DNA from: Lachnospiraceae bacterium
GTDB lineage: Bacteria > Bacillota > Clostridia > Lachnospirales > Lachnospiraceae
Reading direction: 5' to 3'
Length of the DNA stretch: 64,000 nucleotides
Assembly: GCA_016283775.1 (NCBI GenBank)
Contig: JAEENL010000187.1
Span: 1 to 64,000 of the forward strand
Position 1 is the first letter of the stretch. The number at the start of each line of letters is the position of its first letter. A program made the translations under genes and the position numbers. Positions 13,096 to 54,518 of the stretch are shown piece by piece. The notes under the pieces are model-generated. The model ran no database searches. It had not been told where the DNA came from and was given only the letters and a program-made list of their open reading frames with translations.

Positions 13096-13112
13096 GAACA
13101 AGAATCACCTTT

Positions 13113-13236
13113 TTAACATTCGAAGCATTTTAATCGACGTCTCAATGGTCAAAGTCCATACCAATACGTAAAAGATTACCCTTGAAAAAATGTCTAATTT
13201 ACGTGAAACCGTCTCCTTTTTATATTCTTTAACTTC
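13113..13236 (-). pseudogene. Truncated third copy of the small membrane protein gene
   Basis: These 124 bases align without gaps to 13747-13870, the 3' half of the intact gene at 13742-14014, with 4 differences by direct count (about 97% identity). Only the C-terminal part of the coding sequence is present, with no start codon or ribosome site. The homology begins exactly at the stop codon of the neighbouring copy (13235-13237), which looks like a deletion junction. The fragment is in a different frame from that neighbour. Confidence 0.8.
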
Positions 13237-13507
13237 ACTTTAGCATTCGAGCTACGTTAACTCCCGTCTCAATATACGAAGTCACTATCGTTACGTGAAA
13301 GATAATCCTTGAAAAAAATGATAGTTTTTGCGAAACGGCTTTCTTTTTATATTTCTTAAGTTCTACAATGACCGTACTGACGATCCAAGCTAATGTCAGA
13401 CAGGCGGTTATATAATTCCTGAAAAAACACGCGTGTACAAGAATAACGGCCGCCAAAACGGAATAAATAACAATAGTCAAGATGTGAGTCCAGGGTTTTT
13501 TATCCAT
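13235..13507 (-). CDS. Small three-span membrane protein, copy B
   Basis: A 90-residue protein with three hydrophobic segments (about residues 7-27, 31-50 and 63-82) separated by a basic LKKYKKKAVS loop. It is clearly paralogous to the 90-residue protein at 13742-14014: both begin MDKKPWT, share FRNYITA and end ARMLK or LRMLK. The start at 13507 follows GGGAGG. No family is recognised. Size and tandem arrangement would fit an immunity-like or membrane accessory protein, but nothing shows this. The DNA is AT-richer than neighbouring genes. Confidence 0.75.
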   Translation of the reverse strand: MDKKPWTHILTIVIYSVLAAVILVHACFFRNYITACLTLAWIVSTVIVELKKYKKKAVSQKLSFFSRIIFHVTIVTSYIETGVNVARMLK

Positions 13508-13562
13508 TTTCCTCCCTCTGCTTAATTGCAAGATTTTACGATCCGTCTCACCGTAAAACAAA

Positions 13563-13707
13563 ACAGTCACAAGCACCTGTCAGGCCGCCCTATAACACCA
13601 ACCTGTAATCGGTAGTCAGTCCTGCAACGCTAAGGCCCTCAACAAGGGGCAATTTGGTCATATACGACTAATATAAGATCAACTAACCAACAGATACCTG
13701 TGACTGT
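13563..13707. repeat. 9-bp inverted repeat in the gap between copies A and B
   Basis: ACAGTCACA at 13563-13571 and its exact reverse complement TGTGACTGT at 13699-13707 bracket non-coding sequence between the two paralogues. I see no transposase and no obvious target duplication. It may be coincidental or the remains of a small element. Confidence 0.35.
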
Positions 13708-13741
13708 GTGAAGTGCTTTTTCAGAGCAAAAATAAAATAAT

Positions 13742-14014
13742 TTACTTTAACATTCGAAGCATTTTAATCGATGTCTCAATGGTCAAAGTCCATACCAGTA
13801 CGTAAAAGATTGCCCTTGAAAAAATGTCTAATTTACGAGAAACCGTCTCCTTTTTATATTCTTTAACTTCTACAATGATTGAGCTAACTATCCAGACTAC
13901 TGTTACACCGGCAGTTATGTAATTCCTGAAATAAAAAGAATGCGCAAAAAAACCAACTGCCAAAATGCAATAAAAAACAATTGCCAAAATGCGAGTCCAG
14001 GGTTTTTTATCCAT
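13742..14014 (-). CDS. Small three-span membrane protein, copy A
   Basis: A 90-residue protein with three predicted membrane segments and a basic VKEYKKETVSRK loop between the second and third. It is the intact parent or sibling of the copy at 13235-13507 and of the truncated fragment at 13113-13236. I start it at 14014, where CAGGAGG precedes ATG by 5 bases and the protein begins MDKKPWTRILAI like its paralogue. It lies 46 bases downstream of the Cys-pair repeat protein gene on the same strand and could be co-transcribed with it. Function unknown. Confidence 0.78.
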   Translation of the reverse strand: MDKKPWTRILAIVFYCILAVGFFAHSFYFRNYITAGVTVVWIVSSIIVEVKEYKKETVSRKLDIFSRAIFYVLVWTLTIETSIKMLRMLK

Positions 14015-14060
14015 TTTATCCTCCTGCGAACTTTCAATCATAAATCAAAAACAGTCCCCC

Positions 14061-16123
14061 TCACTCAATATTTAATTTACGAACACTATATTTTACAATC
14101 CTGTCATCATGTCCGCAGATCTTACAAAGTCCATTTTTATAGACATGGCTCAATAATTTTTTATGATTGCATCGACTGCAGCTGATAGCATGGGATGAGT
14201 CATCGTAATCAACATATGCCCCGCTGAATGAATGTCCCAATGCGCTTCCCGAAGTAGCATGGCAATTGATACATGTCTTGGGTGATGTGCAAGTAGCTGA
14301 TTTATATTCGTGAGGAATCTTTGATAATAATTCTTGCGAAATAATCATCCCGCATTTCGTACAAGATAACTCCTTTAATCCAGTAGCAGAACATGTTGCG
14401 TTTCTTTTTACTACCCACGTTCCTTTATGCCCGGTGGCCTTATCTACAACGTTGTATTTATCTCCGCAGTATTCACATTTCCATACAACCGCTCCATCGC
14501 TTGTACATGTCGGTTCATATTCTTCATATCGTTCATACTTATGATTATTTTGCTTGATAGTTTCAGTATCAAGAATAGTATCGCAATCCGTACATCGTTT
14601 TATCCTTTTCCCTTCCGCCGTGCAAGAAGGACTGGTCACTGTCTCCCAAGCACCCTCAGTATGTCCTGTAGCATAAATAACATAACTTCCGATGCGTTCA
14701 CCACATTTCTCACAAACTGTTCTTCCATAGCCATTCGAGGTACATGTGGGATTTTTCTCAGTCCACTTTACCCCTTTACCGTGACCCGTTGCTTTTCCGG
14801 TAATGATATCTTCTGTTCGTCCACATCTTTTACACTCATATCTTTTAAATCCATCTTGGGTGCAGGATTTTGTTTGAGTTAGTACACATACATCATCATG
14901 ACCCAGTTCCGGTTTATATTCTATATCGAGTACTTCTTTACACCTATTACAGTATATTTCTTTTTTTTCTCCGCTGGTACAGGTCGCCCCCTCAACTACT
15001 CTTTCTTTTATTATGTGTCCCAAAGGATTCCCTTCTGTTCTTGGGCACCTTGAACAATGTTTTGGCTCATCACACGTAGCTTCTATCCAATCATGACCAG
15101 CCGGAGGATACCACCATCCGCATTCGGGGCAGTAACTCCTGTCCTCGCATACTTTAACTACATGGCTTTGAATATGATCAAACATCGATCTCTCAACAAC
15201 GTAAGTGCAATCCGTACAGTAAGCATCGTGTCCACATGTTGCCTCTACAAATCCGGTATGTTGCGCTTCTGCGGTTTTTCCTATTGTTCCACAATAGATA
15301 CAATGTTCATCTTCGGTACAAAGATCTCTATAAAAAATGTGTTTTGCGCTTCGCTCATTTCCGCACTCATCGCAAATTCGACTGCATTCATACTTGTATT
15401 TGTGACCTCCTCCAATTGCCTCATTCAGATGGTATTCGTTATAATACCTCCCGCAACAGTAGGCCATGAAATCCTCATCACTGGGAATCCCTTCTTCTAC
15501 AGTTTCATGGTGAACTTCTGATGGCTCTATACTAAATCCATCCTGTACAGAAACCGAAATAACAAAAAACCTTCTGGTGTGCACTTTTTTATATATAGTT
15601 TCTTGAATGAGTTCACCATTTACGTAACCGCGACACATATACACAGTATATGTGGCATAGCATAGAATCGACGTTTCCCCTGTTAGATGTTCTGCATTTT
15701 CAATTGCAGCATTAACTATTTTTAATCCTATTTCAAATGCAACGCCCAACTCCTTAGCTATTTGTCCAGCAGCGAAGGAGATGCCATCTATAGCTACATT
15801 TGTTAAAACATCTTCCACGTTTATTTCAAGTTTCTCTTCTGTTGGCCCTTCAGTCTGTTTAACATACAGATCACAACTGAGTCGTGGCGCATATTCACAA
15901 TACGCACCACTCGCCTTTAGAACAAAACCGTCTTCGTCCTCGCTTTGTGTTCCCGTAGATGCAAAAGCATTTAACGAAGGAATCACTCCAGCAATAAAAA
16001 GCGCGGCCAAACCGGCGGCCAAAACCCGTTTTAAAACATTAAAGAGATAGGTTTTGTTTTGTTTTGTTTTGTTTTGTTTTGTTTTGTTTTGTTTTGTTTT
16101 GTTTTGTTTTGTTTTGTTTTCAT
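14061..16123 (-). CDS. Secreted Cys-pair (CxxC) repeat protein, probably phase variable, shown out of frame
   Basis: The open frame encodes about 660 residues after a tract-coded N terminus. The order is a basic (KTKQN)n segment, a hydrophobic core and a signal-peptidase-like site (LAALFIAGVIPSLNAFA), then at least 14 CxxC pairs in units of roughly 45 residues (GH...TCTxxG...CxxCG), reminiscent of zinc-ribbon-like surface repeats. No sorting signal is visible at the C terminus. The best start is ATG 16123, 6 bases after GGAGG (16130-16134), but with 14 pentamers it reads into TAA soon after the tract. The main frame is open only to an ATG at 16163, which lies at or before the predicted transcription start. 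I therefore infer an OFF state. Confidence 0.75.
16051..16120. repeat. (GTTTT)14 pentanucleotide tract at the start of a coding sequence
   Basis: Fourteen perfect copies of GTTTT (AAAAC on the coding, minus strand) run directly up to the ATG at 16121-16123. Because 5 is not a multiple of 3, each gain or loss of one unit changes the frame of everything downstream. By my count 13 or 16 units would put ATG 16123 in frame with the long open frame; 14 does not. Confidence 0.95.
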
Positions 16124-16166
16124 TAATAACCTCCAATAGTTGTTTTAGGGAATATTCCCACATCGA

Positions 16167-16195
16167 ACTATATCAAAACACAAAATATCCGTCAA
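16167..16195 (-). promoter_or_regulatory. Sigma-A promoter for the Cys-pair repeat gene
   Basis: TTGACG (16190-16195) and TATAGT (16167-16172) on the minus strand, 17 bases apart. The expected transcription start is near 16160, which leaves the GGAGG site and ATG 16123 in the leader but places the ATG at 16163 at or upstream of the RNA 5' end. Confidence 0.7.
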
Positions 16196-16290: not shown

Positions 16291-16539
16291 ATGCTCGGAA
16301 AGACAGCAACCGCAACCGCGACGGAAATGCAGAACAACTTCGGTCGTTATCTCGCGCTCGTCCAGGCAGGCAGCGAAGTCATAGTCACAAAAAACGGAAA
16401 AGAAGTGGGGCGCTTTATCCCCAAGGATTCTGCAGTCTCATATCTGACCGATTCGCTCACCGGAATACTTAAAAACGACACAGATATCAAACAGGCGCGC
16501 CATGAAAGGTTAAACAGGAAATATGAGATTACTGATTGA
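16291..16539 (+). CDS. Phd/YefM-type antitoxin
   Basis: An 82-residue protein with the N-terminal fold typical of Phd/YefM antitoxins: TATATEMQNNFGRYL, then VIVTKNGKEVGRFIP. These proteins bind their own promoter through the N terminus and mask the toxin with a flexible C terminus. The gene overlaps the downstream PIN-domain toxin gene by 17 bases, the normal antitoxin-first arrangement. The ribosome site is GAGGTG. Confidence 0.88.
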   Translation: MLGKTATATATEMQNNFGRYLALVQAGSEVIVTKNGKEVGRFIPKDSAVSYLTDSLTGILKNDTDIKQARHERLNRKYEITD

Positions 16540-16933
16540 CGGAAATATATTGCTTGACGTTCTGCAAAAAAGAGAACCGCATTACCCGGATTCCGCAAAG
16601 ATCTGGAAAATGTGTGAGACCGGCATGGCAGAAGGCCACATATCTTCGCTGACGATCGCAAATCTGGTCTATGTTATGAGGAAAGAACTGAATCCGGCCA
16701 CGGTGAACGAGGTCACGAAAAAACTGTCTCTGATCTTTACTTTTGACGACCTCCATGCATCAGACATCACCGCTGCCGCAGAATTACAATGGGATGATTT
16801 TGAGGATGCCGTCCAGGCCGCCACAGCAATGAGGATCGGTTCCGATCACATCATCACAAGAAACGTGAAGGACTTTAAGAAAAGCAAAGTAACCGCTCTT
16901 ACGCCCTCCGAATTCCTGACCCGTTTTCAATGA
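16523..16933 (+). CDS. PIN-domain toxin (VapC-like ribonuclease)
   Basis: A 136-residue PIN-domain protein. The acidic metal-binding residues are visible as Asp6 in LLIDGN, the acidic cluster WDDFEDAVQAATA and the final DHIITRNVKDF motif. Proteins of this family cleave RNA, often tRNA or rRNA, when freed from their antitoxin. It pairs with the overlapping Phd-type antitoxin gene. The pairing of a PIN toxin with a Phd/YefM-fold antitoxin is common in Firmicutes and Bacteroidetes. The target cannot be inferred. Confidence 0.87.
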   Translation: MRLLIDGNILLDVLQKREPHYPDSAKIWKMCETGMAEGHISSLTIANLVYVMRKELNPATVNEVTKKLSLIFTFDDLHASDITAAAELQWDDFEDAVQAATAMRIGSDHIITRNVKDFKKSKVTALTPSEFLTRFQ

Positions 16934-54459: not shown

Positions 54460-54518
54460 GTGCTTATATACTTTTTATATTCTTATATATTTTTATATAC
54501 TCCTATATACTTTTCCGT

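Follow-up and report, generated by a model that had tools for sequence, protein, structure and literature searches.

A start-proximal pentanucleotide repeat as a candidate phase switch for a secreted protein in a Lachnospiraceae bacterium

Introduction

Phase variation in gut anaerobes has mostly been sought as DNA inversion. The locus described here, from a draft Lachnospiraceae genome, raises the question of whether such a bacterium could instead switch a gene by repeat slippage: 14 perfect copies of a five-base unit separate the start codon of a predicted secreted protein from the rest of its coding sequence. The original prediction held that the gene is likely phase-variable and in an OFF state. 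Here we analyse the anatomy of this locus, the reading frames that it would produce at different unit numbers, the encoded protein and the occurrence of comparable tracts in other genomes.

Results

Anatomy of the gene start

The features of the locus are collected in Table 1, with positions counted in the window, the whole 64,000-nucleotide stretch of DNA that was analysed. TRF reported (GTTTT)14 at 16051-16120 with 100% matches and zero mismatches, and direct reading of the minus strand places this tract immediately 3' of the ATG at 16123-16121, just as the original prediction had it. From 5' to 3', the minus strand carries the promoter-like site, GGAGG, the ATG, (AAAAC)14, CTATCTCTTTAATG, the gene body and the stop at 14061. 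The promoter-like site (10 of 12 matches, with an extended -10), the ribosome site and ATG 16123 stand in line and are correctly spaced, in agreement with the earlier description of a GGAGG 6 bases from this ATG and downstream of a predicted promoter. The promoter scan returned 11 sites against 8.5 in shuffled sequences; since shuffles give similar numbers, the score of the site is itself no evidence, and the argument lies in its position.

Table 1. Features of the tract-bearing gene and of the genes directly downstream
Feature	Position	Strand	Basis or remark
Small membrane protein, second copy (58% identity)	13235..13507	(-)	Tandem copy
Small membrane protein, directly downstream, AGGAGG before ATG 14014	13742..14014	(-)	Possible operon partner
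Secreted Cys/His-repeat protein gene	14061..16123	(-)	Out of frame at 14 units; ~685 aa at 13
Signal-peptide remainder, YLFNVLKRVLAAGLAALFIAGVIPSLNAFA	15960..16050	(-)	Sequence inspection; cleavage after AFA predicted by eye
(AAAAC)14 tract, proposed switch	16120-16051	(-)	TRF, frame computation, genome repeat background
Start codon ATG, proposed true start	16121..16123	(-)	Sole start having a ribosome site
Ribosome-binding site GGAGG	16130..16134	(-)	Direct reading; 6 bases 5' of ATG 16123
Alternative start ATG without ribosome site, 4 bases past the -10 box	16161..16163	(-)	In frame at n = 14
Promoter-like site TTGACG-17-TATAGT, extended -10	16167..16195	(-)	10/12 matches

The long frame has other possible starts. 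The promoter-like site ends at 16167, so that transcription would usually begin at about 16160, within or just past ATG 16163; the earlier claim that this ATG lies at or before the expected transcription start therefore stands. A TTG that overlaps GGAGG is a further possible start, and neither of the two is convincing. With n = 2 mod 3, as in the assembled tract of 14 units, ATG 16163 shares the long frame, so weak expression from it would be possible in that state.

Reading frames at different unit numbers

We computed the translation product for every unit number n from 0 to 21. The long frame is joined to ATG 16123 only at n = 1, 4, 7, 10, 13, 16 and 19 (n = 1 mod 3), giving products that grow from 665 residues at n = 1 to 695 at n = 19 (685 at n = 13 and 690 at n = 16), each further three units lengthening the positively charged n-region of the signal peptide by KTKQN. 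At all other values translation ends shortly past the tract, with products of 4 to 40 residues; with the assembled 14 units the product is a 30-residue peptide, MKTKQN...KPISLMF. The recomputation thus reproduces the earlier statement that 13 or 16 units would be in frame and that 14 units lead to a stop soon after the tract. A long perfect tract at the 5' end of an open reading frame, with a unit that is not a multiple of three bases, and a computed product that toggles between the full frame and an early stop as the unit number changes, are both features of contingency loci.

At n = 1 the product would begin with MKTYLFNVLKRVLAAGLAALFIAGVIPSLNAFA-STGTQS, which, judged by eye, is an ordinary signal peptide whose end is of the AxA type. 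The most plausible reading is therefore that the tract grew out of codons two and three of the gene itself; in the simplest history, the original start was ATG AAA ACC TAT and the AAAAC within it was then expanded.

The encoded protein

The open frame extends over ~663 codons, and the probability of such a length without a stop is ~5e-22 from base composition alone. So long an open frame indicates that the gene has not decayed, and its intact state implies that the out-of-frame condition is either recent or reversible. The 660-residue secreted-protein frame that the original prediction described is thus upheld as intact by the open length and by a signal peptide recognised by eye, and an intact downstream gene with a predicted exported product is a further feature of contingency loci. 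Codon usage was unhelpful for confirming the frame, as the gene differs in this respect from its neighbours; the frame is supported by homology at the C-terminus and by its open length.

The protein is rich in cysteine and histidine (of 664 codons, 47 specify Cys and 27 His), with repeats of the form CxxCG...GH, which we would guess to be metal-binding or disulphide-rich surface repeats. Its C-terminal repeats are matched by proteins, many of them exported, in 35 of the 145 related genomes, and the matches include signal-peptide proteins and one lipoprotein of its own genome. A lipoprotein of that genome (L074, G000:C25) consists of some nine short HxWxxATCxxxKTCxxCGxTEG repeats, which are related to these C-terminal repeats. 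For the 238 residues that directly follow the tract, no match was found among 195 genomes, and the whole protein had no relative in a GTDB-wide scan or in the viral collection. There was no matching model in Pfam or NCBIfam, and in particular no homology to the Opa outer-membrane proteins. Single-sequence structure prediction reached a mean pLDDT of 32 and was left unused.

Rarity of the tract

The repeat background of the genome was taken from the window and 80 other contig pieces, together 916,955 bases or 31% of the assembly. These contain no other tract of a 4- to 8-base unit with more than three copies, and their longest homopolymer is 10. AAAAC occurs 3568 times in this 0.917 Mb, with nine sites of at least two units: eight have exactly two and one has 14. 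When the whole assembly was searched by pattern, at least four GTTTT units were found nowhere else. Outside this genome, five consecutive AAAAC units were present in none of 190 other relatives and in none of 398 genomes spread over the phylum, two sets that overlap slightly and together comprise about 590 members of the family, order and phylum. The tract is not a chance product of the genome background, whose repeat lengths it far exceeds, as the tracts of contingency loci do. The original prediction had called such a switch unusual in a Lachnospiraceae-type organism, and its rarity is even stronger than stated.

General loss of mismatch repair is disfavoured as the cause. The genome contains a MutS_II-domain match and its other tracts are unexpanded, which makes the tract a local feature.

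Gene neighbourhood and origin

The gene belongs to an AT-rich island (13235-16123) flanked on one side by thiamine genes (ThiT, thiamine diphosphokinase) and on the other by a Phd/YefM-PIN pair. This pair (16291-16933), a Phd/YefM-type antitoxin and a PIN-domain toxin, is divergent from the secreted-protein gene. The GC content is 41% for the secreted-protein gene and 34-37% for the two small membrane-protein genes, against 49.5% for the window, and the codon usage of all three is unlike that of their neighbours. Low GC and differing codon usage point to recent acquisition, and the island was probably acquired. Relatives had no homologous locus, and the genus genomes searched lacked the adjacent glycosyltransferase and the small membrane proteins as well. 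A truncated third copy of the small membrane-protein gene (13112-13236) is 97% identical to the end of the first copy (13746-13870); together, the copies and this near-identical fragment within 13111-14014 are signs of recent tandem duplication or recombination. Elsewhere in the window, a degenerate AT-rich tandem repeat with a 10/18/20-base period occupies 54463-54514.

AAAAC tracts in other genomes and in viral contigs

Among about 85,000 species genomes, ATG followed by (AAAAC)5 or more was found in one other gene. This gene encodes a lipoprotein of a Bacillota MAG (L020:3476-4001, ATG(AAAAC)6, sequence MIMIVILAVITISLVGC), which from its isolate name we take to come from a termite gut, and is unrelated to the Lachnospiraceae gene. 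Its first ATG joins the lipoprotein frame only at n = 1 mod 3, which leaves the assembled gene, with n = 6, out of frame, and an internal ATG suggests that the switch may be leaky. It is preceded by a TTGACA-TATAAT promoter, with the ATG almost at the expected transcription start, and no second tract of at least four AAAAC units occurs in the L020 genome. As the gene was found through the ATG pattern itself, it indicates that the architecture recurs and is no sign of a preference of such tracts for start codons.

In viral contigs, AAAAC tracts lie mostly upstream of start codons or elsewhere, seldom just after an ATG. In several contigs (L021-L039), (AAAAC)6-7 lies within a few dozen bases upstream of a start codon, perhaps as an unstructured A-rich leader. 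A DNA cytosine methyltransferase of a viral contig (L136:11356-12279) starts with ATG(AAAAC)4 in frame. One of its relatives (L141) is without the repeat and another (L142) has a repeat of unchanged length that differs at one base, so that this phage tract is no evidence of instability.

Discussion

We lean towards reading the locus as a translational contingency locus, a phase switch based on a simple sequence repeat and assembled in its OFF state. In favour of this reading are the perfect tract beside the sole start with a ribosome site, the long frame left open while both others end at once, the ordinary signal peptide at n = 1, the rarity of the tract, the MutS_II match in a genome showing no wider repeat expansion, and the second, unrelated gene that obeys the n = 1 mod 3 rule. 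By this mechanism, slipped-strand mispairing would add or remove AAAAC units beside the start codon. At n = 1 mod 3, ATG 16123 would be in frame and the Cys/His-repeat protein would be made, with a signal-peptide n-region built by the repeat itself (KTKQN for every three units). At any other n, translation would end near the tract, after 30 codons at n = 14, and the assembled state would be OFF from ATG 16123. As to the original prediction, a phase-variable gene agrees with the anatomy of the locus (promoter, ribosome site, ATG, tract, two dead frames and one intact frame), and 14 units are indeed out of frame from ATG 16123, whereas the OFF state holds for the count of a single assembly and would be qualified by any initiation at 16163.

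How unstable might the tract be? The CTCTT repeats in the leader-peptide region of the Neisseria opa genes change at ~1e-3 per cell per generation (PMC3960869), and opa pentamer slippage is also described in PMC3745409; these reports bear out the earlier claim that slipped-strand mispairing in 5-bp tracts switches surface genes in other bacteria. Haemophilus influenzae has tetranucleotide tracts at or just after the start, and there an hsdM pentamer of 4 units already switches fast (PMC2651432). Beyond the tract, frames, start signals and rarity that we observe, we infer from the opa and hsdM rates that 14 perfect units beside a start codon should be unstable in length; populations would then switch, and might benefit from doing so.

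An unlikely but serious alternative is a neutral accident, in which a recently acquired gene lost its function when slippage expanded the AAAAC in ATGAAAAC; the tract would be unstable, but the switch unselected. Known phase-variable species carry many such loci. Here there is a single one, and the examined 31% of the genome has no other repeat of this kind, which speaks against a contingency locus. The AT-rich island with its foreign codon usage, the truncated duplicates adjoining the gene and the failure of the searches above to find a close homologue would all suit an accident; being AT-rich, foreign in codon usage and without an N-terminal homologue, the gene might be a dispensable recent arrival. 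However, the 660-codon frame is intact, and of the nine AAAAC sites with at least two units in 0.92 Mb, the one that expanded is the start-proximal one.

A miscount of the units, or a count that averages over a population, with a real tract whose true main state is 13 or 16 units (ON), is improbable: the assembly is a draft in 198 contigs, and short reads may fail to cover the tract together with sufficient flanking sequence, but its 70 bases fit in a 150-base read, and the tract is perfect and lies inside the contig rather than at its end. Most improbable is leaderless or weak translation from ATG 16163, by which n = 14 would be in frame and the tract would only lengthen a lysine-rich N-terminus, since, although that frame is open through all 14 units, this ATG has no ribosome site and stands 4 bases past the -10 box, with the usual transcription start at or beyond it. 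If both starts worked, expression would take one of three levels, being strong with n = 1 mod 3, weak with n = 2 mod 3 and off with n = 0 mod 3.

A bolder form of the contingency-locus reading, which we offer tentatively, is that a Clostridia lineage of the gut type, otherwise devoid of these tracts, has a true pentamer contingency locus, in which the repeat is both frame switch and n-region builder, the second start possibly provides three expression levels, and expansion at the start codon took place independently in another gut Bacillota. Should the unit number vary, a secreted protein would be bet-hedged by slippage at a locus that surveys built for inversion would miss. The locus is small, and its units can be counted directly in existing reads.

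In form, the closest known system is opa of Neisseria, where a pentamer tract likewise lies in the region coding for the signal peptide and the unit number sets the frame of a surface or secreted product (PMC3960869, PMC3745409). The present locus differs from it in unit, protein and kind of bacterium and in the position of the tract, directly after the ATG and in the n-region; moreover, opa loci are many, whereas here there is one, known from the sequence of one assembly. The loci of Haemophilus influenzae share a tract immediately downstream of the start, in which a change in unit number shifts the frame (PMC2651432), but the unit and the type of gene are different and Haemophilus has a large set of them. 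A slippage switch in a Gram-positive species is provided by icaC of Staphylococcus aureus (PMC7911514), although there four-base units lie within an open reading frame for polysaccharide synthesis and the product is another. The best-known phase variation in Clostridia, that of Clostridioides difficile, works by DNA inversion instead of repeat slippage, and in a recent review both the C. difficile and the gut examples rest on inversion (PMC11868660). In the open-access full-text literature (subscription journals being outside this scope) we found no paper that brings together simple sequence repeats, phase variation and Lachnospiraceae. Phase variation by simple sequence repeats is thus a known principle; the novelty lies in the unit, in the gene and in the setting, an apparent Clostridia-type gut organism.
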